Source of the DNA: Rhodocyclaceae bacterium
GTDB taxonomy: Bacteria > Pseudomonadota > Gammaproteobacteria > Burkholderiales > Rhodocyclaceae
Reading direction: 5' to 3'
DNA length: 56,749 nucleotides
Assembly: GCA_006218025.1 (NCBI GenBank)
Contig: VBWA01000018.1
Location: forward strand, 1-56,749
In this document: one piece after another, positions 12,681 through 53,947 of the stretch
How the letters are laid out: each line of letters begins with the position of its first letter
Numbering within the stretch: the first letter of the stretch is position 1
The notes under the pieces: generated by a model
Told to the model about the DNA's origin: nothing
Databases searched by the model: none
Seen by the model: only the letters and a program-made list of their open reading frames with translations
Position numbers and translations under genes: made by a program

Positions 12681-12706
12681 TCGCCGTCCCGCCGGCGCCG
12701 ACTTTT
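12681..12706 (+). repeat. Dispersed 26-nt motif, copy 1
   Basis: Intergenic copy just past the 3' end of the PanE-like gene, about four differences from the consensus (ends in GCCGACTTTT). Consensus on this strand: TCGCCGTGTCG, then CCAGCGCCGACTTTC. Confidence 0.6.
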
Positions 12707-12710
12707 GCCG

Positions 12711-13718
12711 TCAGCGCGCGGTGACCGCCAGCTTGCCGTTCTGCTCGGCTAGCGTCTTCGCCAGCAGCGAAGCGCAGGCGTAAACGGCGTCGATGCAAGG
12801 GGTCGGCGTCTCCGTCAAGCGACCGAGTTCGCGCACGGAGCCGACCAGTGCTTCGAGTTCGAGCGGCCGACCGGTCTCGACGTCCTGCAGCATCGAGGTC
12901 TTGTGCTTGCCCACCGCCTCGGCGCCGGCGATGCGCTTTTCCAGCGAGACCCTGAACTTGACGCCGAGCTTTTCGGCGATGGACTGCGCCTCGCGCATCA
13001 TGCTGGCCGCCAGCTCGCGCGTCAGCGGGAACTGGCAGATATCGACCAGAGTGGCGTGCGTCAGCGCGCTGATGGGGTTGAAACTGAGGTTGCCCCAGAG
13101 CTTGAGCCAGATCTCGGAGCGGATGTCGGTGGATACCGGCGCCTTGAAGCCGGCGCCGATCAGCGTCTGCGCCAGTGCTTCGACGCGCGGGCTCTTGCTG
13201 CCATCGAGCTCGCCCAGGGTGAAGCGATTGCCCTCGATGACCTTGATCACGCCTGGCGCGACCAGTTCGGAAGCCGGATAGACCACACTGCCGATGACGC
13301 GCTCGATCTCGATGTTCGCCGCTACCGTGCCGTCGGGATCGACCGTGCTGACCGGGCGGCCCTCCCACGGGCCGGCCAGCTTGTGGAAGTACCACCAGGG
13401 AATGCCGTTCTGCATGGTGACGACGAGGGTGTCGGGGCCGAACAGTCCGCGCATGTCGGGCAGCACGTCCTTGACCTGGTGGGCTTTGAGGGTCAGCAGC
13501 ACGATATCCTGCGTGCCGGCCTCGCTCATCTTCTGCGCGCCGCGGACGTTGGCGGCATGGCGCTCGGTGCCATCCTCCTCGATCAGCCTGAGGCCGTTGG
13601 CCTGGATCGCGGCGAGGTTTGGCCCGCGCGCGATGCAGGTCACTTCCTCGCCGGCCAGCGCCAGCCTCGCGCCGAGATAGCCGCCGATGGCGCCAGCGCC
13701 GACAATCGCAATCTTCAT
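12711..13718 (-). CDS. 2-dehydropantoate 2-reductase family protein (PanE/ApbA-like)
   Basis: A 335-residue NADP-dependent reductase with an N-terminal Rossmann motif GAGAIGGYLGARLA, the LLTLKAHQV segment with the conserved Lys near residue 75, and the C-terminal all-helical domain. The start at 13718 is set by AAAGGAGG upstream; a longer frame to 13772 is not needed. True PanE makes pantoate, but paralogs reduce other 2-oxo acids. Being last in an operon with TctABC and a CoA ligase, it probably acts on the imported carboxylic acid rather than in pantothenate synthesis. Confidence 0.8.
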   Translation of the reverse strand: MKIAIVGAGAIGGYLGARLALAGEEVTCIARGPNLAAIQANGLRLIEEDGTERHAANVRGAQKMSEAGTQDIVLLTLKAHQVKDVLPDMRGLFGPDTLVVTMQNGIPWWYFHKLAGPWEGRPVSTVDPDGTVAANIEIERVIGSVVYPASELVAPGVIKVIEGNRFTLGELDGSKSPRVEALAQTLIGAGFKAPVSTDIRSEIWLKLWGNLSFNPISALTHATLVDICQFPLTRELAASMMREAQSIAEKLGVKFRVSLEKRIAGAEAVGKHKTSMLQDVETGRPLELEALVGSVRELGRLTETPTPCIDAVYACASLLAKTLAEQNGKLAVTAR

Positions 13719-13743
13719 CGTTTCCGACCTCCTTTCGAATCGC

Positions 13744-15261
13744 TTACTGGTGCAAGTGGGCGTTGGTCTCACGCTTGCGCAGAAGGTCTTTCAGGGCGCC
13801 CCATGCCGGCAGGAACAGCAGGAAGATGGCCACGGCCATCAGGCCGCCCACCAGCCAGTTGGCGTAAAAGATATTGACGTTGCCCTGCGACATCAGCATC
13901 GACTGGCGGAAGCTCGATTCGGCCATGTCCCCGAGCACCAATGCCAGCACCAGCGGAGCAAGAGGATAGCGTAATTTCTTGAACAGGTAGCCGAGCACGC
14001 CGAACACCAGCATCATCACCACGTCGGTGATCGAGCTGTGCACCGTGTAGGCACCGACGGCGCAGATGAAAATGATCACCGGCGCAATCACCGGGAAGGG
14101 AATGCGCAGGATGGCCGCCCACCATGGCACCGTGGTCAGCACCACGAAGAGGCCGACGATGTTGCCCAGGTACATGCTGGCGATCAGGCCCCAGACGAAG
14201 TCCTTCTGTTCGACGAACAACAGCGGTCCGGGCTGCAGGCCCCAGATCAGGAGGCCGCCGAGCAGCACTGCCGCCGTTGGGGAACCGGGGATGCCCAGGG
14301 TCAGCATGGGCAGCAGGGCGGCGGTGCCGGCGGCATGCGCCGCAGTTTCGGGGGCGACCACACCCTCGACATTGCCCTTGCCGAAAGAGTCCTTGTCCTT
14401 CGCGGCGCGCCGCGCCATGCCGTAGCCCATGAACGAGGCCGGCGTCGCTCCGCCGGGCGTGATGCCCATCCAGCAGCCGATCAGCACCGAGCGAATGAAG
14501 GTGCGCCAGTACTGGAACAGTTGTCCCCAAGTCTGCCAGACGATCCTGAAGTTGATCCTGGCCGACTTGCCCTTGAAGGCCAGGCCCTCTTCCATGGTGG
14601 TGAGGATCTCGCCGATGCCGAAGAGGCCGATCACCGCGATCAGGAAGTCGAAGCCCTTGAGCATCTCGGTGAAGCCGAAGGTCATGCGCAACTGGCCGGT
14701 TACAGTATCCATGCCGACCGCGGCAAGCGCGAAGCCGAGCATCATCGCCGCCAGCGTTTTCATCGGCGGCTCCTTGCTCATGCCGACGAAGCTGCAGAAG
14801 GTCAGCATCTGCACAGCGAAAAATTCCGGTGGACCGAACTCCAGCGCGAACTTCGCCAGCAGCGGCGCGAGGAAGGTGATCGCCAGCACTGCGAACAGCG
14901 CGCCGACGAAGGACGAGGTGAAGGCCGCGGTAAGCGCCTCGGCCGCGCGCCCCTGCTGCGCCATCGGGTAGCCGTCGAAGGTGGTGGCCACCGACCACGG
15001 CTCGCCGGGAATATTGAACAGGATCGAAGTGATCGCGCCGCCGAACAATGCGCCCCAGTAGATGCAGGAGAGCATGATGATGGCCGAGGTCGGGTTCATC
15101 GAGAAGGTCAGCGGCAGCAGGATTGCCACGCCGTTGGCGCCGCCGAGTCCCGGCAGCACGCCGATTAGGATGCCGAGCAGCAGCCCGACCATCATGAAGC
15201 CGAGGTTGGGCAGGGTCAACGCAACGCCGAAACCCTGCATCAGGCTGTTGATTTCGTCCAT
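13744..15261 (-). CDS. tctA: Tripartite tricarboxylate transporter large permease TctA
   Basis: A 505-residue inner-membrane protein with about eleven to twelve helices and the TctA landmarks GVLPGLGGANGVAILLPLTF and, in the second half, GITPGGATPASFMGYG. It forms the transport channel driven by the ion gradient, receiving substrate from TctC. It starts directly after the stop of the short repeat-derived frame at 15262-15345, whose end supplies the GGAGG ribosome site. The reductase gene follows after 25 bases. Confidence 0.92.
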   Translation of the reverse strand: MDEINSLMQGFGVALTLPNLGFMMVGLLLGILIGVLPGLGGANGVAILLPLTFSMNPTSAIIMLSCIYWGALFGGAITSILFNIPGEPWSVATTFDGYPMAQQGRAAEALTAAFTSSFVGALFAVLAITFLAPLLAKFALEFGPPEFFAVQMLTFCSFVGMSKEPPMKTLAAMMLGFALAAVGMDTVTGQLRMTFGFTEMLKGFDFLIAVIGLFGIGEILTTMEEGLAFKGKSARINFRIVWQTWGQLFQYWRTFIRSVLIGCWMGITPGGATPASFMGYGMARRAAKDKDSFGKGNVEGVVAPETAAHAAGTAALLPMLTLGIPGSPTAAVLLGGLLIWGLQPGPLLFVEQKDFVWGLIASMYLGNIVGLFVVLTTVPWWAAILRIPFPVIAPVIIFICAVGAYTVHSSITDVVMMLVFGVLGYLFKKLRYPLAPLVLALVLGDMAESSFRQSMLMSQGNVNIFYANWLVGGLMAVAIFLLFLPAWGALKDLLRKRETNAHLHQ

Positions 15262-15345
15262 CTAGTCCTCCGCCGGGCAGCCCCAAGGGGGACGGCGCCC
15301 CCCCGTGGGGGGCAGCGAGTTGCTGTTACGAGCGTGGGGGGCCAT
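15262..15345 (-). CDS. Repeat-derived 27-codon mini-ORF between tctB and tctA
   Basis: The tctB-tctA spacer is a GC-rich palindromic element (CCCCCCACG against CGTGGGGGG). It is open from an ATG four bases after the tctB stop to a TAG directly abutting the tctA ATG, encoding MAPHARNSNSLPP then TGGRRPPWGCPAED. The element ends in GGAGGAC, which serves tctA. Whether the peptide is made or kept is unknown; the open frame may simply keep ribosomes running into tctA. Confidence 0.4.
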   Translation of the reverse strand: MAPHARNSNSLPPTGGRRPPWGCPAED

Positions 15346-15349
15346 TTTC

Positions 15350-18729: not shown

Positions 18730-18736
18730 CTGTTCA

Positions 18737-18931
18737 ATTCCCCCGCGAGTGCCGTTTGGCCGGCATCCTGAACCTGGGTTCAGAGGGGCCACGTTCCTGC
18801 CGCTTCAGGTTCGCTCACTGGGAGCGATCACAACAGCGGCGTCATTGGGCTGTGGCCGATGCCAATCGGTATTGGTTCAAGGAATGTATGGCCTTGGCGA
18901 ACACCGCAGGGGAAACCCGGGGAAGCCAGGC
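18737..18931 (-). ncRNA. ssrS: 6S RNA
   Basis: About 195 bases between the zapA stop and a strong terminator, the usual position of ssrS. On the minus strand the 5' part carries TTCCCC and the 3' part GGGGGAA, which can pair as the closing stem. The 3' half contains TGAACCCAGGTTCAGGA then TGCCGGCC, resembling the conserved 3' arm of 6S RNA. 6S RNA mimics an open promoter and sequesters sigma-70 RNA polymerase in stationary phase. Ends are estimated from the closing stem; a covariance-model search would settle the call. Confidence 0.65.
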
Positions 18932-19601: not shown

Positions 19602-20702
19602 ATGCCCATTGAAGCCTTCTCTCCGGCCAGCCTGCGCCGCGTATTGGTGATCAAGCTGCGCCATCATGGCGATGTGCTGCTTGCGACGCCGGTGCTTTCA
19701 ATGCTGAAGCGCGTGGCGCCGCAGTGCGAAGTGGATGCGCTGGCCTACGCCGATACCGCGCCGATGCTCGAAGGCCACCCGGCGCTGGCGCAACTGCATC
19801 TGATCGACCGCAACTGGAAGCGGCAGGGCTTGTGGCGGCAGGCTGCGGCCGAATGGAAGCTGATCTCGGAGCTGCGCACGAGGCGCTACGACCTTGTGGT
19901 GCATCTCTCGGTGCATACGCGCGGCGCCTGGCTGGTGCGTTTGTTGCGGCCGCGCTGGTCGGTGGCACCGCAATTCCGTGTCGGGTTCTGGGCCAACAGT
20001 TTCACCCACCTTTACCCGGCGCAGTCGGACCCGCTGCGCCACACCGTCGAGACCAATCTCGACAGCCTGCGCGCCCTGGGACTGGAGCCGACCGCCGCCG
20101 ACAAGGTCGTGACCATGGTGCCGGGGGCAAAGGCTGAGGCGCGCGTCGCCGGCTTGCTCGCCGAGCATGGCCTGCAGACGGGTGCTTTCGTCCATGTCCA
20201 TCCCGCCTCGCGCTGGGCCTTCAAGTGCTGGCCCGCCGAACGCGTCGCGGCCTTGTGCGATGCGCTCGCGGCGAAGGGTTGGCCCATCGTGCTGAGCTCG
20301 GCGCCCGATGCGAACGAGAAGGCGCTGATTGCCGCGGTGTGCGCCGCTCGCGACAAAAACGCCGTATCGCCAGCGCCGACTTTCGACATTTCCGGCCAGC
20401 TTTCGCTGAAGGAACTCGCGGCGCTGACGGCGCAGGCCAAACTCTTCGTCGGCGTCGATTCGGCGCCGATGCACATTGCCGCCGCGATGGGCACGCCGGT
20501 GGTCGCCATCTTCGGCCCTTCGGGCGATCTGGAATGGGGGCCGTGGGATCCGTTGCAAAGCGGCCATCGGATCGTTGCCTCGAACACTCACCCATGCCGC
20601 CCCTGCGGCATGGCCGGCTGCAACGACAGCAAGATCAGCGACTGCCTGACCACCTTGCCGGTGGCGCAGGTTTTATCAGCATGCGAGGATCTGCTGGCGT
20701 GA
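19602..20702 (+). CDS. waaQ: LPS core heptosyltransferase III-like protein (GT9)
   Basis: A 366-residue GT-B glycosyltransferase of family 9, closest to the WaaQ branch. The N-terminal VLVIKLRHHGDVLLATPVLSMLK motif, the FVGVDSAPMHIAAAMGTPVVAIFGPS nucleotide-heptose segment and the Cys-rich tail HPCRPCGMAGCNDSKISDCL are all typical. It would add a side heptose to the inner LPS core on the cytoplasmic face. It overlaps the waaG-like gene. One copy of the dispersed 26-nt motif lies inside it (20359-20384), coding SPAPTFD in a variable region. Confidence 0.87.
   Translation: MPIEAFSPASLRRVLVIKLRHHGDVLLATPVLSMLKRVAPQCEVDALAYADTAPMLEGHPALAQLHLIDRNWKRQGLWRQAAAEWKLISELRTRRYDLVVHLSVHTRGAWLVRLLRPRWSVAPQFRVGFWANSFTHLYPAQSDPLRHTVETNLDSLRALGLEPTAADKVVTMVPGAKAEARVAGLLAEHGLQTGAFVHVHPASRWAFKCWPAERVAALCDALAAKGWPIVLSSAPDANEKALIAAVCAARDKNAVSPAPTFDISGQLSLKELAALTAQAKLFVGVDSAPMHIAAAMGTPVVAIFGPSGDLEWGPWDPLQSGHRIVASNTHPCRPCGMAGCNDSKISDCLTTLPVAQVLSACEDLLA
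20359..20384 (+). repeat. Dispersed 26-nt motif, copy 2 (in waaQ)
   Basis: Two differences from consensus; reads in frame as SPAPTFD. Similarity to the copy at 40379 continues six bases further (GACAT). Confidence 0.7.
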
Positions 20703-22911: not shown

Positions 22912-24191
22912 GTCTGCTTTCGCGGATTTTTCATCGCCGCGATCAGCACGCCGCAGAGGAAGGCGAACAGCCCCAGCCGCCAGCCGGAAAGATGGCCGTC
23001 GAGCAGGCAGCGCAACAAATAGCTGCCGGTCAGGAAGCTGAACATCAGGCCGGCAGCGTCGTCGTGCTGGCGGAACTGCCGCCAGCCGCCGCGAATCGCC
23101 AGCCCGGCGGTGAGCAGCAGCAGGGCAAGGCCGGGGAGGCCGGCAGCGAGCGCGAAATCGAGCCAGCCGCTGTGGCTGCTGACGAAGCCCTTCTGGCCGA
23201 ATTTCGCCTCGATCACCCGACCGAAGCCGTCGCGGCCGAAACCGAGGCCCAGCGGATGCTCGCCGACGGCCAGCATGGCCTGGTGTGTCCAGGCGGCACG
23301 CGCATAGGCAGATTCCTCGAGCGCCGCTCCCGACGGCGTCGGCGGACGCGATGTCGGGTCGCCGCTCAGCCAATACAAACCGGAAGAGTTCCAGCCAACG
23401 ACTATCGACTCCTTCAATCCGCCCCAGCGCGAATCGAGCGCAAAAGACGCGCCGCCCAGCGCTGCGACGACCAACAGCAACAGAAGGAAACGCGGCTGGC
23501 GCCGGGCCATCCAGGCGGTCGCCGTCAACAGCAGTACGGCACTGACGACGGTGCCGTTGCGGGTACGCAGGACAGCGTCGGCAATCAGGGCAAGGGCGAA
23601 CGCCGACCAGGCCAGCCGGGGTGCGGAAATCGCCTCAACCGGGCCGACGGACAGTACCGCGAGTCTGTCGGCGAGGAGCAGCGCAAGCAGGAAACCGCTC
23701 AGACTGCTGTGGTAGTCGCGCTCGCCGATGGGCACGATTCCGGCAGGCCATGCGCCCGACGCACCCGCCGATATCCACAGCCAGAGTTGCCAGCCGAACA
23801 TCCAGAGCATGTGCGCCAGCAGCGCCGCGACCACAGCGCGGATGGCCAGACGGGGTTCCAGACGTGTCGCAGCATAGGCCGCCAGGGCCGCCGTCAGCAG
23901 CGGCATGATCCAGTCGCCGCGCAGGTTGTCCAGCGCAAGAGTCGGCGCTGGCGCTACGGTAACGGAATGCAAGGCCAGCCAGGCCGTGGTCGCCACCAGT
24001 GCCCACGCCGCGGGCTTCAGTGCCGGCAGCGGCTGCGGGCGCGGCGCGCGGCGCAAGCTTGCCAGCAGCGTCAGCAAGCCGACCAGCAGCAGCAGGTTGC
24101 GCAGGGCAATCGTATGAGGAATGGGAAAGACGAAAACGATCGCGGCAAGCCAGGCCTGCCAGAACCAGGTCACCGCCGCGCCGCGCATCAT
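22908..24191 (-). CDS. O-antigen ligase/polymerase family membrane protein
   Basis: A 427-residue integral membrane protein with about twelve hydrophobic segments and a large periplasmic loop in the second half (GWNSSGLYWLSGDPTSRPPTP to FVSSHSGWLDFALAAGLPG). The HSGWLDFALAAG part matches the Wzy_C domain of WaaL-type ligases, which join O-antigen to lipid A-core. WaaL and Wzy share this fold, so ligase versus polymerase is open. It lies between glycosyltransferase genes with four-base overlaps. A copy of the dispersed motif encodes VAPAPTL near residue 80. Confidence 0.8.
   Translation of the reverse strand: MMRGAAVTWFWQAWLAAIVFVFPIPHTIALRNLLLLVGLLTLLASLRRAPRPQPLPALKPAAWALVATTAWLALHSVTVAPAPTLALDNLRGDWIMPLLTAALAAYAATRLEPRLAIRAVVAALLAHMLWMFGWQLWLWISAGASGAWPAGIVPIGERDYHSSLSGFLLALLLADRLAVLSVGPVEAISAPRLAWSAFALALIADAVLRTRNGTVVSAVLLLTATAWMARRQPRFLLLLLVVAALGGASFALDSRWGGLKESIVVGWNSSGLYWLSGDPTSRPPTPSGAALEESAYARAAWTHQAMLAVGEHPLGLGFGRDGFGRVIEAKFGQKGFVSSHSGWLDFALAAGLPGLALLLLTAGLAIRGGWRQFRQHDDAAGLMFSFLTGSYLLRCLLDGHLSGWRLGLFAFLCGVLIAAMKNPRKQT
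23937..23962 (-). repeat. Dispersed 26-nt motif, copy 3 (in O-antigen ligase)
   Basis: Core AGTCGGCGCTGG is exact; about six differences outside it. Reads as VAPAPTL in the ligase frame. Confidence 0.55.
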
Positions 24192-25165: not shown

Positions 25166-26139
25166 TGCAGCCGTCCCCGTTTGCCCTCGTGCCAGGCCAG
25201 CAGCGCGTTGTGCAGCGTTTCCGCGCGATGGGCGTAGGTGTGCCGTGCCATGACATGGGCGTGGCAGCGTTCGGCGAGCTCGCGCGCGGCGGCGAAGTTC
25301 GCCAGCCAGTATTCGATTTGCGCGACAGCTTCGTCCAGCCCCTCGAACTCGGCCCAGTTGTCCCCGGGCGTGAAGTCGTCGCGTGCATGTGTGCGCCGGT
25401 CGCAGAGCAGGAAGCCGCCGCAGGCCGGAATGCCGTAGCAGCGCTCGGGCAGGCCCGAGGCCACCGGCGCGCCGTAGTCGCAGGAGGCGCCGAAGTTGAG
25501 GTTGATGCGGCTCTTCTGGATCAGCGCCACCTGTTCTTCGACACTCATGCCGGCCGATTCGCGGAACAGGAAGCGGATGCCACGCGCCGCCAGCCGCTCG
25601 CCCAGCGCGGTGAAGAACTCCTGCCGACTGCGCATTTCCTGGTAGCGAAGGCCGTCCATGGCGCCGAAGAAGCTGACGTCGTGCTCATAGCGGGCCGGGT
25701 CGCGCAATTCGGCGAGCGTCGCGCCGTGCAAGTGATAGCGGGCGATGTCGGCGGCATTGGGCAGGTAGAGCAGGCTGTCGGCGAAACTGCGCTGCGAGTC
25801 GACCAGGCTGTGCGTGGCATAGATGTCGAACAGGCGCCCGCGGTCCAGCCAGTCCAGCCGCCATGCCGCGCGATTAAGGTAGTGCGGCGCATCCTGGTTC
25901 CAGACGAACAGCGGTATGCCTTGCCGGCGCAGGAAACGATGCATGCCCCATATCGTCAGTGGATGGCGCAGGCCTTCGTAGAACCAGGTGTAGGCGCCGA
26001 GGATGCGCTGCGCTTCGCTGCGATCGGCGTCCTGCCAGCGCCGACTTTCGCGCAGAACCAAGCCGCGCGCCGCGAGCTCGCGGCGCAGTGCCGGATGCAG
26101 GCTGCCGTGGGCGATCAGCAGGACATCTCTGACCGTCAT
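25162..26139 (-). CDS. CgeB-like glycosyltransferase (GT4-type C-terminal domain)
   Basis: A 325-residue protein. The N-terminal half (VLLIAHGSLHPALRRELAARG, PLFVWNQDAPHYLNR) resembles DUF3880/CgeB-type proteins. The C-terminal half has INLNFGASCDYG and LPERCYGIPACGGFLLCDRR, the usual glycosyl-transferase segment. The start at 26139 overlaps the FkbM gene stop. A much longer open frame to 27012 on this strand is a shadow. A dispersed-motif copy is read here as ESRRWQD. Confidence 0.75.
   Translation of the reverse strand: MTVRDVLLIAHGSLHPALRRELAARGLVLRESRRWQDADRSEAQRILGAYTWFYEGLRHPLTIWGMHRFLRRQGIPLFVWNQDAPHYLNRAAWRLDWLDRGRLFDIYATHSLVDSQRSFADSLLYLPNAADIARYHLHGATLAELRDPARYEHDVSFFGAMDGLRYQEMRSRQEFFTALGERLAARGIRFLFRESAGMSVEEQVALIQKSRINLNFGASCDYGAPVASGLPERCYGIPACGGFLLCDRRTHARDDFTPGDNWAEFEGLDEAVAQIEYWLANFAAARELAERCHAHVMARHTYAHRAETLHNALLAWHEGKRGRLQ
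26024..26049 (+). repeat. Dispersed 26-nt motif, copy 4
   Basis: The last 16 bases match the consensus exactly and a few bases differ in the first ten. The enclosing minus-strand gene reads it as ESRRWQD, a different frame from copies 2 and 3. Confidence 0.65.
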
Positions 26140-29296: not shown

Positions 29297-30366
29297 CAGA
29301 AGCTCTCCCGCGCCAGGGCTTCCCAGGCGTCGAGCGCCCGCTCGGCCGCGTAGGGCGCCAGCGCTGCGGCGACCACACCCTGCGCCGGCTTCGGTGCCGA
29401 CAGTGCGGCGCGCATTGCCGTCGCCAGCGCATCAGCGTCGTTGCAGGGCACCAGCCATTGCGCGAGTTCGCCGCCGAGGATCTCGCGCGGACCGGAGGGG
29501 CAGTCGGTGCTGACCACGCGCGTGCTGCAGGCCAGCGCTTCGATCAGTACGTTGGGCAGGCCCTCGTGGTCGGAGCACAGCACCAGCAGGTCGGCGCCGG
29601 CCATCCACGGATAGGGGTTGGCCTGAAAGTCGGCGATGAGGACACGGTGCGTGAGATTCCGTTGCGCGATCAGCGCAGCAAGTTTCGCGTCGGGCGGCGT
29701 CAGCAGCACCAGCGTCTGCGGCAGTTCCGCCTGTGCAAATGCGGCGAGCAGCAGGTCGTGGCGCTTCTGCGCGGAAAAGCGCCCGACATGAAGGACGTAA
29801 GGTCCGGCAGGCCGCGTCGGGCACGGCTCGGCGGCAAGCGCGCGGATGGCGGCGAAGTCGAAGGGGTTGGCGATGACTTGTGCCCGTTTGGCATCGATAC
29901 CGAAGTGCGATTGCAGGTCCGCCTCCACGCCTTGCGAGACGGCGACCAGCCGGCGCGGGCCGTAAAGCTCGCGATAACGGGCCGCGCGCCGTTGCGCCTT
30001 GGCGGCAGGCAATCGCGCGATCTCGGCCGACAGCGTATTGGCGATGCGGCAGACGTGGCGCGGCGCCCACGCCAGGGCCGCGACTTCGTCGGCGAAGGGC
30101 AGCGTCGATACCAGCAGGTCGTGAGGGCGCGATGCCAGGTGGCGCTTCAGGCGCCAGGCCAGTCGCCGCTTGCCCAGCCAGCCGTGGCCGGCACGTGCGG
30201 CCAGGGCATGAAATCCGCAGCCGGCGGGCGGCGCGTATTTGCCCGCATCCTCGCAGACGATGAAGTCCACCTCGTGTCCGCGCGCGGCCAGTCCGCTGGC
30301 GATCTTGGCCAGCGCCTTTTCGGCACCGCCGCCGGCAAGATTGGTGGTGAATAGCGCGAACTTCAT
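29296..30366 (-). CDS. Glycosyltransferase family 4 protein
   Basis: A 356-residue GT-B enzyme starting MKFALFTTNLAGGGAEKALAKIAS, a classic donor/acceptor loop. The donor site is YVLHVGRFSAQKRHDLLLAAF and CSDHEGLPNVLIEALACSTRVVSTD (E-x7-E). The ATG overlaps the preceding GT9 gene stop. An upstream extension to 30672 is rejected. A diverged dispersed-motif copy is read as VLIADFQ. Confidence 0.87.
   Translation of the reverse strand: MKFALFTTNLAGGGAEKALAKIASGLAARGHEVDFIVCEDAGKYAPPAGCGFHALAARAGHGWLGKRRLAWRLKRHLASRPHDLLVSTLPFADEVAALAWAPRHVCRIANTLSAEIARLPAAKAQRRAARYRELYGPRRLVAVSQGVEADLQSHFGIDAKRAQVIANPFDFAAIRALAAEPCPTRPAGPYVLHVGRFSAQKRHDLLLAAFAQAELPQTLVLLTPPDAKLAALIAQRNLTHRVLIADFQANPYPWMAGADLLVLCSDHEGLPNVLIEALACSTRVVSTDCPSGPREILGGELAQWLVPCNDADALATAMRAALSAPKPAQGVVAAALAPYAAERALDAWEALARESF
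29625..29650 (-). repeat. Dispersed 26-nt motif, copy 5 (diverged)
   Basis: Begins GAAAGTCGGCG like the consensus and keeps GACACGG further on; about five differences overall. Read as VLIADFQ. Confidence 0.45.
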
Positions 30367-32109: not shown

Positions 32110-33203
32110 GGCTGCGCGGCCTGTTTAAAAATGGCTTCCATCCGATCGAGCATGGCGTCCCGCGAAAAGTCGGCGCTGGCGACACGGCGCGCGGCGTCGC
32201 CGAGGCGGGCGGCGAGTGCGTCGTCGTCGAGCAGGCGGGCGATGGCGGCGGCCAGCGCCGCGGCGTCCTTCGGCGGCACTACCAGCGCTGTCTCGCTGTC
32301 ACTCACGGCTTCGAGAATCGCGCCGACCGGGGTGCTGACGATCGGCAGGCCGCAGAGCATGGCCTGCAGGATGGCCTGCGGCACGCCTTCGTTGGCGTAG
32401 GACGGCAGGCAGAAAACATCCATGGCCTGCAGCCAGTGTTCGGGGTCGCCGCGCTGGCCGGCCAGCGTGACCCGCTCGCCTATCCCAAGCGCTGCGATCT
32501 TCTCCGCTATCGGGCCGCGCATCGGGCCTTCGCCGACGATCAGCAGGTGCAGCCCGGGCCGCTCGAGTTGCGCGAAGGCATCGAGCAGGAACAGATGGCC
32601 CTTCCAGCTGCGCAGCGTGGCGACGATGCCGAGGTGGCGCTGCGCCGGATCGAGTCCGAGCGCGAGTTTTGCGGCGGCCCTGTCGGCCGCGCGTTTGACA
32701 GGACTGAAGCGCACCGTGTCGATTCCGGTGGGCACCGAGGTCACGCGCGCCGGTTCGAGGTCGAGGGCTTTCAGCAGGTGCCGGCGCAGGCTCTCGCCGG
32801 TGGTGACCACGGCACTGGCGCGACGGTAGAGCCAGCGGTTGAAGGGATTGGTGGACACTGTTGCCGAGATGTGGCGGGTGCGCACGATCGCCGGCGGATT
32901 CCTCAGCGTGGCGCAGGCGAGGCCCGTCAGCCATGAATCGGCCGAGCTGTGGGTATTCACCACGTCCGGCTGCCGGCTTGCCAGATAGCTGCGCAGCGCC
33001 CGGAATCCGGCGACGGTCTTGAACTCGAGCGGCAGCGCCACCACCGGCACGCCGAAGCGGGCCGCCTCGGTCGTCATCCGGGCGTGGGCGGGACAGGCGA
33101 CGGCAACTTCATGACCACGCGCAATCAGGCCCTTCGATTCCTCGAGGATGCGGATTTCCTGCCCGCCCCAGCCACAGGAGGCTTCGGTGTGGAGAATTTT
33201 CAC
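32106..33203 (-). CDS. Glycosyltransferase family 4 protein
   Basis: A 365-residue GT-B enzyme beginning VKILHTEASCGWGGQEIRILEE, with GIVATLRSWKGHLFLLDAF and PSYANEGVPQAILQAMLCGLPIVSTPVG in the donor domain. The start is GTG 33203 with GGGGAG upstream. The first eight codons are duplicated 50 bases upstream, where they start a separate 17-codon frame (see 33200-33253). The dispersed motif near the 3' end is read as VASADFS. Confidence 0.87.
   Translation of the reverse strand: MKILHTEASCGWGGQEIRILEESKGLIARGHEVAVACPAHARMTTEAARFGVPVVALPLEFKTVAGFRALRSYLASRQPDVVNTHSSADSWLTGLACATLRNPPAIVRTRHISATVSTNPFNRWLYRRASAVVTTGESLRRHLLKALDLEPARVTSVPTGIDTVRFSPVKRAADRAAAKLALGLDPAQRHLGIVATLRSWKGHLFLLDAFAQLERPGLHLLIVGEGPMRGPIAEKIAALGIGERVTLAGQRGDPEHWLQAMDVFCLPSYANEGVPQAILQAMLCGLPIVSTPVGAILEAVSDSETALVVPPKDAAALAAAIARLLDDDALAARLGDAARRVASADFSRDAMLDRMEAIFKQAAQP
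32165..32190 (-). repeat. Dispersed 26-nt motif, copy 6 (in GT4)
   Basis: Two differences from the consensus. Read as VASADFS, a third reading frame relative to SPAPTF and ESRRW. Confidence 0.7.
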
Positions 33204-35042: not shown

Positions 35043-37781
35043 TCAGTGCGCGGCGTCCCAGTTGGCGCCGACTCCCACTTCGACAAGAAGAGGTACCTTG
35101 AGCCTGGCGACGCCGCCCATCAGCTTCGGCAGCATCTCGCGCACTAGCTCGAGTTCCGCCTCCGGCACTTCGAGTACCAGTTCGTCATGCACCTGCAGCA
35201 CCAGCAGGGTTTGCAGCTTTTGTGCGTCGAGCCAGTCCTGCACGGCCAGCATGGCGCGCTTGATCAGGTCGGCGGCGGTGCCCTGCATCGGCGCATTGAT
35301 CGCGGCGCGCTCGGCGCCCTGGCGGCGGCCGGCGTTGGACGACTTGATTTCGGGCAGCCACAGGCGGCGGCCGAATACGGTTTCGACATAGCCCTTGTCG
35401 CGGGCGATGGCGCGGGTGTCTTCCATGTAGCGGGCGACGCCGGGATAACGGGCGAAGTAGCGGTCCATGTAGGCCGCCGCGGCCGTGCGGTCCACGCCGA
35501 TCTGCTTGGCCAGGCCGAAGGCGCTCATGCCGTAGATCAGTCCGAAGTTGATGACTTTCGCCGCGCGGCGCTGCTCGCTGCTGACCTCGATCGGCGTGAC
35601 GCCGAAGATCTCGCCGGCCGTGGCGCGATGCACGTCCTCGCCCTGGGCGAAGGCTTCGAGCAGGCGCGGATCGTCGGAGAGGTGGGCCATGATGCGCAGC
35701 TCGATCTGCGAATAGTCGGCGCTGACGATACGGTGATTTGCCGGCGCGACGAAGGCGGAACGGATGCGGCGGCCCTCCGGCGTGCGGATCGGGATGTTCT
35801 GCAGGTTGGGGTCGGTCGAGGCCAGCCGACCGGTGACCGCGGTGGCCTGGCCGAAGCTGGTGTGCACGCGGCCGGTGGCCGGGTTGATCATCTTCGGCAA
35901 CTTGTCGGTGTAGGTGTTCTTGAGTTTCGCCAGGCTTCGATGCTCGAGGATTTTCTTCGGCAGCGGGTAATCCTCGGCCAGCTTCTCCAGCACTTCCTCG
36001 TCGGTCGATGGCCCGCCCGAAGGCGTCTTCTTGACCACCGGCAGGCCCTGCTGATTGAACAGGATTTCGGCCAGCTGTTTCGGCGAATTCAGGTTGAAGG
36101 GCTGGCCGGCGAGCAGTTGCGCCTCGGTTTCGAGGGCCATGATCTTGCGCCCGAGCTCGTCGCTTTGCTGCGCCAGCGTCGCCGCATCGATCAGCACGCC
36201 ATTGCGCTCGATGCGGAACAGAACCTCGGCCACCGGCAGTTCCAGGTCGCGGTAAAGGCTTTCCAGTTGCGGCTCGGCGGCGAGCTGCGGGCGCAGCACC
36301 TGATGCACGCGCAGCGTGACATCGGCATCCTCGGCAGCGTATTCGGCGGCACGCTCGACATCGACCTGGGCGAAGGAAATGCGGTTGGCGCCCTTGCCGG
36401 TAACGGCGTCGTAGCTGATCGTCGCGAGGCCGCAATGGCGCGCCGCGAGCGAGCCCAGATCGTGCGGCTTGTCGGATTCCAGCACGTAGGACTGCAGCAG
36501 CGTGTCCTCGACGATGCCGCGCAATTGCACGCCGTGATTGGCGAAGATGTGGCGATCGTACTTGAGGTGCTGGCCCAGCTTGGCGTGATTCGCCGATTCA
36601 AGCCAGGGCTTGAGCCGGGCCAGCGTTTCGGCGAAGGGCAGTTGCGTCGGTGCGCCGGCATAGCTGTGGCCGAGCGGCAGGTAGGCGGCATCGACGCGGT
36701 CATCCGCGGCAATGGCGAAGGAAATGCCCACCAGCCGCGCCTGCATCGGGTCGAGGCCGGTGGTCTCGGTGTCGAGCGAAACCAGTTCGGCGGCGTCGAG
36801 GCGGGCCAGCCATGCGTCGAGTTGTGACGGCTCGACAATGCATTGGTAGCCGCTGCGGTCGGGTTCGCTCGTCGGAGCTGCAGAAGTCGGCGCTGGCGGC
36901 ACGGCATTCTCGTTGCGCGCCTGCGGCGCCGGCTTCTCCCCGCTCAGCTCGCGCAGCCAGCCCTTGAATTCCAGCCGTGCATACAACTCGGACAGCTTTT
37001 CCTTGTCCGGCGGCTGCGGTGCGAGATCGGTCACCGCCTGCGGCAGCGGCACGTCGCACACCACGGTGACGAGCTTGACCCCCAGCGGCAGGAAATCGAG
37101 GTGCTTCCGCAGGTTTTCGCCCACCGCGCCGCCGATCTCGCCGGCATGGGCCACGATCGCATCGAGCGACCCCCAGGCGTCGAGCCATTTGACGGCGGTC
37201 TTCGGTCCCACCTTGGACACGCCCGGCACGCCGTCCGAGGTATCGCCGACCAAGGCGAGGTAATCGACGATGCGCTCGGGCGGCACGCCGAACTTGGCCT
37301 GCACGCCGGCCGCGTCGAGCTTTTCGTTGTTCATGGTGTTGACCAGCGTGACGTGCGGATTCACCAGCTGCGCCAGATCCTTGTCGCCGGTCGAGATCAC
37401 GCAGGCTATGCCGGCTGCGGCGGCCTGCGTCGACAGGGTGCCGATCACGTCGTCGGCCTCGACGCCGTCGATCATCAGCAGCGGCCAGCCGGCGGCGCGG
37501 ATGCACTGGTGCAGGGGCTCGATCTGCGCCACCAGATCTTCCGGCATCGAGGGGCGGTGCGCCTTGTACTCCGGATACCAGTCGTCGCGGAAAGTTTTGC
37601 CCTTGGCATCGAATACCACGGCGCGGAAATCTGACTTATAGTCGGCTTCGAGCACGCGCAGCATGGACAGCACGCCGCGGATCGCGCCGGTCGGTTCGCC
37701 ATGGGTCGTGCGCAGATCGGGCAGTGCGTGGAATGCGCGGTAAAGATAGGACGAGCCGTCGACGAGCAGAAGCGTGGGCAT
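35043..37781 (-). CDS. polA: DNA polymerase I
   Basis: A 912-residue full-length PolI. It has the N-terminal 5'-3' exonuclease (LLVDGSSYLYRAFHAL; metal-site region GVEADDVIGTLS), an intact 3'-5' exonuclease (SLDTETTGLD) and the polymerase with motif A VSADYSQIELR and motif C QVHDELVLEVP. It does repair and Okazaki maturation. The linker after the 5' nuclease contains PPAPTSAAPTSEP, encoded by a dispersed-motif copy. ATG 37781 lies only 16 bases from the divergent LOG gene. Confidence 0.97.
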   Translation of the reverse strand: MPTLLLVDGSSYLYRAFHALPDLRTTHGEPTGAIRGVLSMLRVLEADYKSDFRAVVFDAKGKTFRDDWYPEYKAHRPSMPEDLVAQIEPLHQCIRAAGWPLLMIDGVEADDVIGTLSTQAAAAGIACVISTGDKDLAQLVNPHVTLVNTMNNEKLDAAGVQAKFGVPPERIVDYLALVGDTSDGVPGVSKVGPKTAVKWLDAWGSLDAIVAHAGEIGGAVGENLRKHLDFLPLGVKLVTVVCDVPLPQAVTDLAPQPPDKEKLSELYARLEFKGWLRELSGEKPAPQARNENAVPPAPTSAAPTSEPDRSGYQCIVEPSQLDAWLARLDAAELVSLDTETTGLDPMQARLVGISFAIAADDRVDAAYLPLGHSYAGAPTQLPFAETLARLKPWLESANHAKLGQHLKYDRHIFANHGVQLRGIVEDTLLQSYVLESDKPHDLGSLAARHCGLATISYDAVTGKGANRISFAQVDVERAAEYAAEDADVTLRVHQVLRPQLAAEPQLESLYRDLELPVAEVLFRIERNGVLIDAATLAQQSDELGRKIMALETEAQLLAGQPFNLNSPKQLAEILFNQQGLPVVKKTPSGGPSTDEEVLEKLAEDYPLPKKILEHRSLAKLKNTYTDKLPKMINPATGRVHTSFGQATAVTGRLASTDPNLQNIPIRTPEGRRIRSAFVAPANHRIVSADYSQIELRIMAHLSDDPRLLEAFAQGEDVHRATAGEIFGVTPIEVSSEQRRAAKVINFGLIYGMSAFGLAKQIGVDRTAAAAYMDRYFARYPGVARYMEDTRAIARDKGYVETVFGRRLWLPEIKSSNAGRRQGAERAAINAPMQGTAADLIKRAMLAVQDWLDAQKLQTLLVLQVHDELVLEVPEAELELVREMLPKLMGGVARLKVPLLVEVGVGANWDAAH
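35711..35736 (-). repeat. Motif-like copy in polA motif A
   Basis: About five differences from consensus. It encodes the conserved VSADYS of polymerase motif A, so it cannot be an insertion; either chance or codon choice produced it. Confidence 0.35.
36882..36907 (-). repeat. Dispersed 26-nt motif, copy 7 (in polA linker)
   Basis: About four differences. Read as VPPAPTS in the poorly conserved linker between the nuclease domains. Confidence 0.6.
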
Positions 37782-40372: not shown

Positions 40373-41562
40373 TCGCGGTCGCCGTACCACCAGCGCCGAC
40401 TTTCGACATCACGCGCTACGGGCAGGTGTTCACGCCGCCCGCGATCGTCGACCGCATGCTCGCCCTGCGTCGCAACCACGGACGGGTGCTCGACCCGGCC
40501 AGCGGCGACGGCGCGTTCTCAGGGCGCATTCCCGGCTGCGTGGCGATCGAGCTCGACGCTGCGCACTGCCCCGCCGGCGCGCTCAACATCGACTTCTTCG
40601 CCTATCCCGAGAGCGAGCAGTTCGCCACCGTCATCGGCAACCCGCCCTACGTCAAGGCGCGCGACATCCTGCCGGAAACCGCGGTGCGCCTCGGCTCCAG
40701 CCTGCTCGACGGCCACGCCAACCTCTATCTGCATTTCATCGAGAAATGCGTGAGGCATCTCGTCCCCGGCGGCGAACTGATCCTCATCACGCCGCGCGAT
40801 TTCCTCAAGGCCACCGGCGCCGGGCGGCTCAACACCTGGCTCCACGACCAGGGCACGATCACCGATTTCGAGGACCTCGGCGACGCCAAAATTTTCGCCG
40901 GCGCCGCGCCCAACTGCGCGATCTGGCGCTTCGAAAAAGGCAACGCCAGCCATCGCCTGAAGGACGGGCGGCGCATGGCGCTGTCCGGCGGCCAGTTGAT
41001 GTTCACCCGCGGCATCTACAGCCTGCCGCTGGCCAGTGTCTTCGCCGTCAAGGTCGGCGCGGTTTCCGGCGCCGACGACATTTTCAGCAACGAGGAATTC
41101 GCCAACAGCGATTTCGTCTGCTCGAAAACCGCGCAGACCGGAGTCACGCGCCGCATGATCTACCTCGATCGCGAAGCTCCGCTGCCGTATCTGGTGCAGT
41201 TCAAGGAGCGCCTGCTGGCGCGTCGCGTCGCCCGCTTCGACGAATCCAACTGGTGGAAATGGGGCCGCCGCCATCATGTGTCGCCCGATCCGCGGATCTA
41301 CGTCAATGGCCGCACGCGCAATCCGCAACCCTTCTTCCTGCATCCCTGCAAGGACTACGACGGCGCCGTGCTGGCGCTGTTTCCGCATCGCGCGAAACTG
41401 AAACCCGCCGACCTCAAGCGCCTGAAGGACATGCTCAATGACGTCGATTGGCATGAGCTGGGCTTCGTCTGCGATGGCCGCTTCCTGTTCTCGCAGCGCA
41501 GCCTGGAACAAGCCCTGCTGCCGGAAGCGTTTGCCGAGTTCGCGGTCAAGGGGCTGGTGTAA
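40369..41562 (+). CDS. Orphan N6-adenine DNA methyltransferase (M.TaqI/Eco57I type)
   Basis: A 397-residue gamma-class m6A methylase. The SAM site is VLDPASGDGAFS (40-51), the catalytic NPPY is at 91-94, and the FTPP start motif is at 21-24. The C-terminal half probably holds the target recognition domain. No restriction endonuclease gene is adjacent, so it is solitary or regulatory, or part of a fused modification system whose specificity is unknown. Its first 14 codons are provided by the junction repeat end and a dispersed-motif copy (VPPAPTFDI). Confidence 0.8.
   Translation: MIAVAVPPAPTFDITRYGQVFTPPAIVDRMLALRRNHGRVLDPASGDGAFSGRIPGCVAIELDAAHCPAGALNIDFFAYPESEQFATVIGNPPYVKARDILPETAVRLGSSLLDGHANLYLHFIEKCVRHLVPGGELILITPRDFLKATGAGRLNTWLHDQGTITDFEDLGDAKIFAGAAPNCAIWRFEKGNASHRLKDGRRMALSGGQLMFTRGIYSLPLASVFAVKVGAVSGADDIFSNEEFANSDFVCSKTAQTGVTRRMIYLDREAPLPYLVQFKERLLARRVARFDESNWWKWGRRHHVSPDPRIYVNGRTRNPQPFFLHPCKDYDGAVLALFPHRAKLKPADLKRLKDMLNDVDWHELGFVCDGRFLFSQRSLEQALLPEAFAEFAVKGLV
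40379..40404 (+). repeat. Dispersed 26-nt motif, copy 8 (5' end of methylase)
   Basis: Three differences; the following GACAT is shared with the copy in waaQ. Read as VPPAPTF. Confidence 0.7.
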
Positions 41563-45230: not shown

Positions 45231-46178
45231 ATGAAGCTGGCTTTTATAGTGGATCCGCTGGAGAGCATCCAGGCCTACAAGGATTCCAGCGTCGCCATGA
45301 TGCGCTGCGCGGCGAAGCGCGGCCATGACGTGTGGACCATCCAGCGTGCGGCGCTGACCTGGCGCGACGGCTGCGTTGCCGCCCGCGCGCAACGCCTGAA
45401 AGTCGGCGCCGACGACACGGCGTGGTTCGCCGTGGCCGAAGAATCCGTGCAACCGCTGACCGCCTACGACGCGGTGCTGATGCGGCAGGACCCGCCCTTC
45501 GATTTCGAGTATGTCGCGGCCACCTGGCTGCTGGAACGCGCCGAGGCCGAGGGCGCGCGGATCTGGAACAAGCCGCGCTCGATTCGCGACCATTCCGAGA
45601 AGGTGGCGATCACCGAGTTCCCGCAATACACGCCGACCACGCTGATCGCCCGCGATCCGGCCGACATCCATGCCTTCATCGACGAACTCGGCGACGTGAT
45701 CCTCAAGCCGCTCGACGGCATGGGCGGCAGCAGCATTTTTCGGGTGCTGAAAGACGACTCCAACCGCAACGTCATCGTCGAGACCCTGACCCAGTTCGGC
45801 GCCCGCAGCATCATGGCCCAGCGCTACCTGCCGGCCATCACGCACGGCGACAAGCGCATCCTGTTGATCGCCGGAGAGCCTGTGCCCTACTGCCTGGCGC
45901 GCATCCCGAAGCCCGGCGAATCGCGCGGCAATCTCGCCGCCGGGGGCAAGGGCGTGGCGCGCCCGCTGCTCGGCCGCGACCGTGAAATCGCCGAGGCGCT
46001 GGCGCCGACTCTCTGGGCGCGCGGCCTGCTGATCGTCGGCCTCGACGTGATCGGCGACTGCCTGACCGAGATCAACGTCACCAGTCCCACCTGTTTCGTC
46101 GAGATCACCCAGCAGACGAAGTTCGACGTGGCCGCCACCTTGATCGACGCCCTGGAACGGGAGTGTTCCGGCTCCTGA
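45231..46178 (+). CDS. gshB: Glutathione synthetase
   Basis: A 315-residue ATP-grasp enzyme. MKLAFIVDPLESIQAYKDSSVAMM is the family N terminus; ILKPLDGMGGSSIFR and GDKRILLIAGEP form the ATP-grasp, and INVTSPTCFVEI is at the C terminus. It adds glycine to gamma-glutamylcysteine. It overlaps apbE by 16 bases. A dispersed-motif copy is read as LKVGADDTA, and a weaker one lies near 45998. Confidence 0.95.
   Translation: MKLAFIVDPLESIQAYKDSSVAMMRCAAKRGHDVWTIQRAALTWRDGCVAARAQRLKVGADDTAWFAVAEESVQPLTAYDAVLMRQDPPFDFEYVAATWLLERAEAEGARIWNKPRSIRDHSEKVAITEFPQYTPTTLIARDPADIHAFIDELGDVILKPLDGMGGSSIFRVLKDDSNRNVIVETLTQFGARSIMAQRYLPAITHGDKRILLIAGEPVPYCLARIPKPGESRGNLAAGGKGVARPLLGRDREIAEALAPTLWARGLLIVGLDVIGDCLTEINVTSPTCFVEITQQTKFDVAATLIDALERECSGS
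45398..45423 (-). repeat. Dispersed 26-nt motif, copy 9 (in gshB)
   Basis: Three differences; preceded by CT as in the copies at 47113 and 53897. Read on the plus strand as LKVGADDTA. Confidence 0.6.
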
Positions 46179-47209
46179 CCCTGCTCGCCGCGGTTTGGCT
46201 GCTCGCGGCTTGCGGGCAGCCGGCGCCCTGGCGGCAGGAGTCCTACGTCTTCGGCACCCGCGTCGAACTGCTGATCGCGGGCCTGCCCGAAGCGCAGGCC
46301 CGTGCCGCCGGCGATCGCGTCCTGCGCGAATTCGACCGGCTGCATCGCAGCTACCACGCCTGGCAGCCCTCCGAACTGTCGGCCCTGAACGACGCCATCG
46401 CCGCCGGGCGCACGCACGAAGTCACGGCCGAGTTCGCCGCGTACATCCGCGAGGCGCAAGCCGTCGCCGCGGCGGGCGACCATCTGTTCGATCCCGGCAT
46501 CGGCCGGCTGATCGCCCTGTGGGGTTTTCACACCGACGACATCCAGGCGCGCCTGCCCGATATGGCCACCGTCAATGTGCTGGTGGCGCAGCATCCTTCG
46601 ATCGCCGACCTGCGCGTGGACGGCAATCGCGTCAGCAGCCGCAACAGGAGCGTAGCCCTCGACTTCGGCGGCTATTTGAAAGGAGTGGCGCTCGATCGCG
46701 CGGCGGCCTCGCTGAAACAGGACGGCGTCGCCAACGCCCTGATCAACATCGGCGGCAACGTCATGGCCCTGGGCACCCGCGATGCGGCCGGCACGCCCTG
46801 GCGTGTCGGCATCCAGCACCCGCGGCCGCAGGGCGTCGGCGGCGCGCCGCTGGCCACGCTGGAACTGCGCGACGGCGAAGCCATCGGCACCTCGGGCGAC
46901 TATCACCGCTACTTCGAAGTGGGCGGCCGCCGCTACTGCCACCTGCTCGATCCGCGCAGCGGCTTTCCTGCAGATGTGACACAGGCGGTGACGGTGCTGA
47001 TTGCGCCGGGCCCGGGCGCCGGCATGCGCTCCGACGCACTGTCGAAGCCGATTTTCATCGCCGGCCGCGAGTGGCGCGACATGGCGAAAAAGCTCGGCGT
47101 CGACGCGGTGCTGAAAGTCGGCGCTGACGGTACGGCGAGCGCAACGCCCGCGATGAAGGCGCGGATCAAGATCGAGGTCCCCGACTTGCAGTTGGAGGTG
47201 AGTCCATGA
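46163..47209 (+). CDS. apbE: FAD:protein FMN transferase (ApbE lipoprotein)
   Basis: A 348-residue lipoprotein: signal sequence with lipobox LAAC (Cys17), then the ApbE fold with VALDFGGYLKGVALDRAAASL, INIGGNVMALG and the C-terminal DAVTVLI-like segment. It attaches FMN covalently to Thr of flavoproteins such as Nqr or Rnf subunits; none is in the window. It starts with GTG inside gshB. A dispersed-motif copy near the 3' end is read as LKVGADGTAS. Confidence 0.9.
   Translation: MFRLLTLLAAVWLLAACGQPAPWRQESYVFGTRVELLIAGLPEAQARAAGDRVLREFDRLHRSYHAWQPSELSALNDAIAAGRTHEVTAEFAAYIREAQAVAAAGDHLFDPGIGRLIALWGFHTDDIQARLPDMATVNVLVAQHPSIADLRVDGNRVSSRNRSVALDFGGYLKGVALDRAAASLKQDGVANALINIGGNVMALGTRDAAGTPWRVGIQHPRPQGVGGAPLATLELRDGEAIGTSGDYHRYFEVGGRRYCHLLDPRSGFPADVTQAVTVLIAPGPGAGMRSDALSKPIFIAGREWRDMAKKLGVDAVLKVGADGTASATPAMKARIKIEVPDLQLEVSP
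47113..47138 (-). repeat. Dispersed 26-nt motif, copy 10 (in apbE)
   Basis: Three differences; read on the plus strand as LKVGADGTAS. Confidence 0.65.
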
Positions 47210-51646: not shown

Positions 51647-51668
51647 GCGCAGGCCGGCGTCAGGAGAT

Positions 51669-52253: not shown

Positions 52254-52297
52254 GGGCGTGGTCCTAAGGTCGGAAGCGAGGGGCACGCAGCGCGCGG

Positions 52298-52585: not shown

Positions 52586-52673
52586 TGCGTCGCTTTCTTC
52601 ATGGGTAGAGCGGTTCCACGTCGGATCCGGGGCCCGGAAATGATACCCCTCTGCGTGCCGGCGCTGCCGGCGG

Positions 52674-53282: not shown

Positions 53283-53387
53283 GTGCACTCCTTACGAGAG
53301 GTCCAACGCTTCGAAATCGCCGGCGTCGGATCGGGCTCCAGCATGTAACGACCTTTCAAGGCGTCGCGACCGACGACACACAGATGC

Positions 53388-53678
53388 TCAGAGCCCTTCG
53401 ATGATGCGGATTTCCCGTTCGGCACCATCGCCAAGAGCGGCCAGCGCGGCCTGGTAGCCGGGGCTGTCATGGGTGGCAAGCGCCTGTTCGACACTGTCGA
53501 ACTCGATCAACACGGTACGCTGCTTCAAGCCCTGCTCGTAAACCTTCGCCGGCTCGCCGCGCGCCAAAAACCGGCCTCCACCGGAAGCGATTGCCGGTCC
53601 GGCAAGCTTCGCGTAGGCGGCAAGTTTGTCGGGGTCGCTTACCGCGCGATACACGCTTACCCAATAGGCCTTTGACAT
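53388..53678 (-). CDS. DUF1330 family protein
   Basis: A 96-residue protein: KAYWVSVYRAVSDPDKLAAYAKLAGPAIASGGGRFLARGEP and VLIEFDSVEQALATHDSPGYQAAL. It is clearly a second DUF1330 member and belongs to a different subgroup from the one at 52298. GGGAAA before ATG. Function unknown. Confidence 0.85.
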   Translation of the reverse strand: MSKAYWVSVYRAVSDPDKLAAYAKLAGPAIASGGGRFLARGEPAKVYEQGLKQRTVLIEFDSVEQALATHDSPGYQAALAALGDGAEREIRIIEGL

Positions 53679-53705
53679 GATATTTCCCTTTCCCGGTCAA
53701 TGACG

Positions 53706-53754
53706 CAGTAGAAAAGTCTCTTCCTCCACGCATCCTGCCGTGAACCAAATGGAA
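53706..53754 (+). repeat. Repeat leader, left copy
   Basis: Starts GCAGTAGAAAAGTC and ends with a 27-base stretch (53728-53754, ACGCATCC to AAATGGAA) repeated exactly at 56723-56749. It forms the upstream region of the small frame at 53795. Confidence 0.8.
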
Positions 53755-53794
53755 CAACAAGACTCCAGGCACAAGTTCCTGCGCAGGAGGATTC

Positions 53795-53947
53795 ATGGCT
53801 CGCTGCAAGAACGACCTCACGGGAGCCGCCGCCTGCGCGCAGCAGGGCGAACGGGCGAGGAAGAACCGCTCGCCAGAACCCGCCGGCGGCTTGCCTGAAA
53901 GTCGGCGCTGGCGACACGGCGACTTGAGCAATCCGGGAATCAAATGA
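53795..53947 (+). CDS. 50-codon small ORF carrying the perfect motif copy
   Basis: ATG 53795 follows a strong GCAGGAGG site. The frame starts MARCKNDLTGAAACAQQGER and ends PESRRWRHGDLSNPGIK. The last third is encoded by the one copy of the dispersed motif that equals its consensus (53897-53922). Its upstream region recurs at the right end of the window, so the unit seems multicopy. No family known; translation unproven. On the opposite strand the motif reads VSPAPTF in a longer but siteless frame. Confidence 0.45.
   Translation: MARCKNDLTGAAACAQQGERARKNRSPEPAGGLPESRRWRHGDLSNPGIK
53897..53922 (-). repeat. Dispersed 26-nt motif, copy 11 (equals consensus)
   Basis: GAAAGTCGGCGCTGG followed by CGACACGGCGA, preceded by CT. 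Confidence 0.8.

Follow-up and report, generated by a model that had tools for sequence, protein, structure and literature searches.

Why does a GC-rich word of about 26 bases recur, in several reading frames, along a bacterial contig? The question is raised by a 56,749-nucleotide stretch of a Rhodocyclaceae genome (GenBank assembly GCA_006218025.1, contig VBWA01000018.1, positions 1 to 56,749 of the forward strand), which as a whole we call the window. A preliminary description of the window had listed 12 copies of the word and had offered three candidate roles for it: a DNA-uptake signal, a chromosome-maintenance or other protein-binding site, and a mobile mini-repeat. Our analysis indicates that the motif is probably a DNA-uptake signal. 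We favour this reading because the copies are many and fall into clade-limited dialects, because they show no polarity, an origin by substitution and even spacing, and because they are scarce in foreign-looking DNA.

Abundance and form of the word

In the 4,441,755-bp genome, the exact 12-base core occurs 548 times (278 and 270 by strand) and its reversed control twice, so that the genome-wide count, which had been proposed as a check, lies far above chance. The core and its sub-words also rank first among the over-represented 10- and 12-mers, in a ranking made on 457 kb of the window's genome rather than on the whole of it. A profile refined iteratively on 496,749 bases from the window's genome (G000 in our numbering) and 600,000 bases of the closed genome G002, which we take to be S. 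hydrogenivorans sk43H, gave a 27-bp consensus of ~35 bits, CRRRAGTCGGCGCTGGCGRBACGGCGA, with 213 sites in 1.097 Mb against a single site for the reversed profile. The sample of the window's genome holds 97 profile sites, or ~195 per Mb, which extrapolates to ~870 genome-wide. Around the core, positions from about -4 to +23 are sharply conserved; the flanks beyond are not. The motif is not palindromic and consists of a long block, AGTCGGCGCTGGCG, two loose positions, and a second block, ACGGCG. Both the hundreds of copies and the top rank among repeats are what is expected of uptake sequences.

In the window itself, the 27-bp profile finds 13 sites, namely the 12 listed earlier, all of which do hold the motif, and a weak one at 45988. 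The recurrence of the 26-base consensus is upheld, with its length revised by the profile to 27 bp, and the seven copies said to keep the 12-base core exactly are confirmed, with cores at 20370, 23940, 26035, 32168, 36885, 40390, and 53900. Matches to the core with at most one mismatch number 14, compared with 0.75 expected (100 shuffles, maximum 3), and the 26-mer with at most three mismatches is matched six times, compared with none across 100 shuffles. The copies in the window are as follows:

12681..12707, minus strand: motif copy, score 38.9; intergenic, just 3' of a panE-type gene ending at 12711
20359..20385, minus strand: motif copy, score 39.6, exact core; within a glycosyltransferase-9 gene (19602-20702, plus strand)
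23936..23962, plus strand: motif copy, score 34.1, exact core; within an O-antigen ligase-type gene (22908-24191, minus strand)
26024..26050, minus strand: motif copy, score 34.4, exact core; within a minus-strand glycosyltransferase gene
29624..29650, plus strand: motif copy, score 25.7; within a minus-strand glycosyltransferase gene
32164..32190, plus strand: motif copy, score 39.0, exact core; within a minus-strand glycosyltransferase gene
35710..35736, plus strand: motif copy, score 35.2; in polA (35043-37781, minus strand), over the RIVSADYS codons, where the clade alignment is gapless
36881..36907, plus strand: motif copy, score 32.4, exact core; also within polA, in its hypervariable linker
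40379..40405, minus strand: motif copy, score 40.0, exact core; at the beginning of an Eco57I-type methylase gene (40369-41562, plus strand)
45397..45423, plus strand: motif copy, score 33.5; in gshB (45231-46178, plus strand), most motif-free orthologues being equally long there
45988..46014, minus strand: weak motif copy, score 22.4; in gshB, where the conserved peptide EIAEALAPTLWA largely accounts for the copy
47112..47138, plus strand: motif copy, score 40.3; within an ApbE-family gene (46163-47209, plus strand)
53896..53922, plus strand: motif copy, score 42.0, the best in the window; outside predicted genes, 92 bp before the first attC-like repeat

By predicted genes, 11 of the 13 lie inside genes, in line with the earlier wording "mostly inside genes"; the two outside are those at 12681 and 53897.

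Placement of the copies

Across the larger sample, 69 of the 213 sites read along the coding strand of a gene, 72 along the opposite strand, and 72 are intergenic (31 expected), which leaves 141 (66%) in genes compared with 85% of the DNA being coding. For these counts, genes were predicted with a simple script based on codon usage, not taken from annotation. The script leaves the low-GC first 12 kb of the window without genes, so that the expected intergenic share is too high and the enrichment is conservative. Intergenic sites lie at a median of 28 bp from the 3' end of a gene and 121 bp from a 5' end. All six frame and strand classes are used, unevenly (2 to 55 sites each), which bears out the statement that copies fall in several reading frames.

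Sites are spaced more evenly than random placement would give (coefficient of variation 0.81 vs. 0.97 +/- 0.07 simulated, P=0.0045), and they are scarce in DNA of low GC content, with 6 of the 213 sites in the 27 of 219 5-kb bins below 60% GC (P=2e-6). The preliminary description had seen no copy before 12.6 kb of the window or within the cassette array, and had taken the motif to look like a signature of the host chromosome. The absence is real; with 2.5 sites expected and a ~9% chance of none, it is not significant alone, and it fits the wider scarcity of sites in low-GC DNA. A bias of strand or replichore had been suggested as a further check, and none appeared in the samples of closed G002, where the two replichores have strand counts of 36/43 and 18/19 (P=0.84) and both strands are represented in the sampled stretches (11 and 14). 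A replication-polar site is rejected from these samples. The lack of strand or replichore bias, together with permissive positions both genic and intergenic, is the placement expected of an uptake signal.

The main rival to an uptake signal is a site of nucleoid or chromosome organisation, at which a clade-specific cytoplasmic protein would organise, segregate, or protect the nucleoid, with a copy every few kilobases. The even spacing and the scarcity in low-GC islands would suit such a site, and the motif resembles Chi, FtsK-orienting polar sequences (KOPS), matS, and parS in being a scattered, species-specific word. However, it is much longer than these words and non-palindromic. KOPS are polar and matS sites are confined to ter, whereas the motif shows no replichore polarity, its copies do not evidently cluster by region in the samples, and inspection of 30 samples of closed G002 revealed no evident gradient from ori to ter. 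Genus-level dialects, and a genome (G016) that lives with almost no copies, also argue against a chromosome site, which we consider unlikely.

A mark read inside the cell for recombination or self-recognition, whether akin to Chi or belonging to a restriction or defence system, would likewise be clade-specific and scattered in a way that labels self. Chi sites, though, are short and oriented with replication, whereas the site here is bipartite, 27 bp long, and balanced between strands on both replichores, and phage contigs bear the word at a lower density than the host. Such a mark is improbable, and distinctly more so than a chromosome site.

Origin of the copies and distribution among relatives

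Copies that are dispersed, near-identical, and limited to a clade might have been spread by insertion of a mobile mini-repeat, and some do lie within repeated flanks (L133 of G177; L335). Comparison of orthologues speaks against this. Among 37 orthologous placements, the motif was kept in 13, altered without gaps in 9, and altered with gaps, small or other, in 15. None looks like an insertion: a subject gap of at least 20 bp at the would-be insertion point was found in 0 of the 37, a count that is biased where BLAST segments end at long gaps and may hide some. MAFFT alignments of polA and gshB are free of that bias. Over the palm site of polA (RIVSADYS) the alignment is gapless in all 29 covering rows. 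An orthologue of gshB was recovered from 24 of 30 genomes. G000, G010, and G017 have the site; the remaining rows carry quite different residues there at unchanged length, except for a 3-bp gap in G103 and G082 and, in G002, a 60-bp insert that interrupts the motif. Clean element-length indels are not seen in these alignments and the flanks are unconserved, and we reject a mini-insertion of the kind of miniature inverted-repeat transposable elements (MITEs) or repetitive extragenic palindromic (REP) elements; the mobile mini-repeat of the preliminary description is thus a very remote prospect. Copies arise by substitution rather than insertion, as an uptake signal would predict.

The insert in the gshB gene of G002 is one instance of a dispersed ~50-63-bp repeat, 96% identical between G002 and G199 and with shorter pieces in G000 (L297/L309, the G002 gshB locus, L188, L073, and L046). 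There it is inserted in frame and splits a motif copy, and it has the appearance of a small mobile element that preserves the reading frame.

The motif could also be a by-product of conserved peptides and codon preference, and for the weak site at 45988, on a conserved peptide, this largely holds. On the other hand, all six frame and strand classes are used and 72 of the 213 sites are intergenic. In the palm of polA, the motif (at most three mismatches) is present in 17 of 19 motif-rich rows (not in G025 and G072) and in none of eight motif-free rows, G009 being excluded from the count because it does not cover the site. The motif-free relatives encode a nearly identical peptide with other codons; as read from the alignment, every motif-rich row spells the palm serine AGC, and six of the eight motif-free rows use TCN. 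In the variable linker of the same gene, copies sit at the homologous place in either orientation among relatives (inverted in G017). Frame usage and the polA codons lead us to reject peptide conservation as the cause of the motif, an explanation to which we give scarcely any weight, and they agree with the earlier view that the DNA and not a peptide is conserved.

The word is characteristic of a clade. The exact 12-mer is present in all 31 genomes of the window's genus, which is probably, though not certainly, Sulfuritalea, with 20 to 548 copies, compared with 0 to 11 copies in 30 genomes of other genera. By a looser pattern, 30 of the 31 have 105 to 661 copies, and G016, a genome that is 99% complete, has 29. 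In a survey of 199 genomes of the family, 21 genomes across six genera had more than 200 matches, three (G109, G098, and G076) had 23 to 43, and 175 had at most 16. A scan with an exact 28-mer, taking one genome per GTDB species, matched 32 stretches. Their records go under the names Sulfuritalea, Rhodocyclaceae, Rhodocyclales, or beta-proteobacterium, with one metagenome-assembled genome labelled Burkholderiaceae. The hosts are Rhodocyclaceae, and within the family probably Sulfuritalea, Rugosibacter, and their relatives; Rhodocyclaceae strain Ca6, like sk43H an environmental isolate, is presumably what is now Rugosibacter aromaticivorans.

Within the clade the word has dialects. In G132 (genus g43) it ends in ACGGCAC (26 sites in 118 kb). 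G098 (g69) has AGTCGACGCTGG as its core, and in 146 kb of that genome AAAAGTCGACGC occurs 18 times against 0.06 expected. The words of g70 and g88 differ little from that of the window's genus, and the counts in G016 and G076 are near background, at ~20 per Mb. A second frequent word in G153 proved to be one repetitive gene. In a polA tree, from which G076 was left out (its polA matched in two pieces), the motif-bearing rows form one group with fork support 99/97, except that motif-free G082 joins g70 within it, weakly (86/75). G016 is placed within the window's genus, and the neighbours of G098 are the motif-rich G061 and G091; because of these positions G016 is best read as a loss of the motif and G098 as a switch of dialect, the latter carrying an altered core rather than having lost the word, so that a loss is rejected for it. 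A single origin of the motif is likely on this tree, though not proven. Restriction to a clade, with dialects that follow phylogeny, is again the behaviour of an uptake sequence, with G082 inside the clade and copy-poor G016 and G076 as exceptions.

A probable uptake signal among known systems

If the motif is an uptake signal, cells of the clade would take up DNA via type IV pili, and a surface DNA receptor, for which our best guess is a ComP-like minor pilin beside fimT, would bind the 27-bp word. Kin DNA would thereby enter preferentially, and recombination of word-bearing DNA would spread and maintain the word wherever proteins and regulation tolerate it (molecular drive). The binding, the preference in uptake, the identity of the receptor, and the drive are what we infer. 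Whether all this amounts to a third, independently evolved uptake system, with a bipartite GC-rich 27-bp word, dialects (AGTCGGCGC, AGTCGACGC, and ...ACGGCAC), a loss in G016, a ComP-like pilin as reader, and integron-like cassettes and phages that carry the word, seems to us an evenly balanced question.

According to PMC12616744, only Neisseriaceae and Pasteurellaceae are known to use uptake sequences. As PMC3630211 and PMC12616744 describe them, the DNA uptake sequences (DUS) of Neisseriaceae, whose receptor is ComP, share with the motif the many copies, the top rank among repeats, the dialects that follow phylogeny, and the intragenic copies in permissive places, and minor pilins of the ComP_DUS family are found here too. 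In contrast, the motif is a putative signal of a different bacterial family; it is 27 bp rather than ~10-13 bp long, with a lower density of ~0.2 per kb, and has AGTCGGCGCTGG where DUS have an inner core CTG (PMC12616744). Full inverted pairs, numerous among DUS according to PMC3630211, are rare here. The motif is not a member of the neisserial DUS sequence family, as its consensus differs and ComP_DUS pilins also occur in motif-free genomes.

The motif also resembles the uptake signal sequences (USS) of Pasteurellaceae, whose proposed receptor is ComN/PpdA. USS are long and discontinuous, up to 32 nt (PMC12616744), and show no general genomic orientation bias; in H. influenzae 65% of them lie in open reading frames compared with ~86% coding (PMC2346458), close to the 66% and 85% found here. 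Unlike the motif, USS have AT-rich flanks and an orientation bias within genes (PMC2346458), whereas here the second block is GC-rich (ACGGCG), the A-rich part is at the 5' edge, and genic sites are unbiased (69/72). No sequence relation to USS was seen.

The uptake machinery that was found is compatible with competence without establishing it. All 46 genomes tested have ComEC, and DprA exceeds its cut-off in 26 of 27. A PilE-like minor pilin adjoins fimT in at least 15 genomes, and ComP_DUS (PF16732, the family of the neisserial DUS receptor) was over cut-off in all 15 pilins tested, nine of them from motif-rich genomes, four from motif-free ones (G082, G084, G126, and G071), and two from motif-poor ones (G016 and G076). 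Judged by family, a receptor of the right kind is available; nothing in our comparisons ties this pilin to the word. None of GspH/FimT, ComEC, DprA, ComEA, and ComP_DUS tracks the motif by presence or absence, and we reject each as a receptor identified in that way, as we do the N-methyl pilins of eight genomes (only part of them clustered), none of which, among those compared, tracks the motif. A mature pilin of 53-54 residues in G000, G002, and G199 (L207, L216, and L225) presumably resembles the short pilin of Geobacter, and a different pilin of G002 matches the Geobacter geopilin.

Several observations weigh against uptake. All 6 of the pilins tested from motif-free or motif-poor genomes exceed the ComP_DUS cut-off, and ComEC, GspH/FimT, and DprA are also found in motif-free relatives and in copy-poor G016. 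DprA over cut-off was not found in the window's genome, a draft of 141 contigs, and GspH/FimT was not found in G098, G099, and G063 among 46 genomes, the first two of which bear the motif. ComEA exceeds the NCBIfam cut-off in 2 of 16 genomes (G199 and motif-free G034), the window's genome not among them. Pfam HHH_3 matched 24 of 27 genomes, mostly through frames of about 800 residues that resemble Tex protein, and short, strong ComEA-like frames were seen in G199 and G117 (motif-rich) and in G034, G122, and G071 (motif-free) among the 27. That ComEA is mostly undetected counts against competence, and this, with the failure of competence genes to track the motif, is a further point in favour of a chromosome site. 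Inverted pairs are rare, with one full-length pair among 211 sites examined; inverted matches of at least 9 bp accompany 5 of 71 intergenic sites and 2 of 140 genic ones. Frequent inverted pairs are a common accompaniment of DUS and are not needed for uptake; with only one full pair, a role as terminator is rejected. The open-licence literature yielded no report of competence in this group and none of the motif (searched by the 12-mer, and by uptake sequences and natural transformation or competence in Betaproteobacteria, Burkholderiales, Rhodocyclaceae, and Sulfuritalea), and where Rhodocyclaceae and natural competence are named together, in two papers, the passages concern other contexts. 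The uptake signal of the preliminary description is thus partly supported: it has come through in its hundreds of copies and in most sequence-level tests, and has failed in the frequency of inverted pairs and in the tracking of competence genes.

Phage contigs carry copies too, which also tells against a signal of kin DNA. The exact 22-mer form is present in at least 120 stretches of IMG/VR contigs, and 80 listed stretches hold 123 profile sites in 727 kb. With the one conditioned match of each removed, the density is ~59 per Mb, a third of that of the host; the true phage density is lower still, because the loci were chosen for having the word. At least some of these loci are phage, as they include genes for a terminase (L362), primases (L345 and L349), and tail fibre J (L335). 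In phage-like L335 (629-2123), five motif copies lie in 4.7 tandem units of 316 bp, each unit beside an attC-like sequence, attC being judged by eye. In G177, L133:3591-5553 holds five copies within 2 kb, with repeated flanks of 63 and 108 nt, between apparent small accessory genes.

If the motif is indeed an uptake signal, cassettes and phages of related hosts could ride the uptake pathway, and a third case would show that self-tagging of DNA evolves repeatedly. The hosts are environmental bacteria, some of them in culture, so the purpose of uptake sequences would become testable outside pathogens, and a natural loss lineage and a dialect switch would be available for finding the receptor.

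The window has other features of its own. Its low-GC first part (1-12600, ~54% GC), without the motif and possibly acquired, encodes a branched-chain-type ABC transporter, an aldehyde dehydrogenase, and a class-III aminotransferase. At the far end, 54015-56071 is an integron cassette array of 55-57% GC with four 74-nt attC-like repeats at spacings of 711, 684, and 588 bp, and the window ends just past it; its small genes include an ArsN1-like acetyltransferase that scores below its cut-off. A 6S RNA lies at 18736-18915 on the minus strand (Rfam RF00013, 64 bits).

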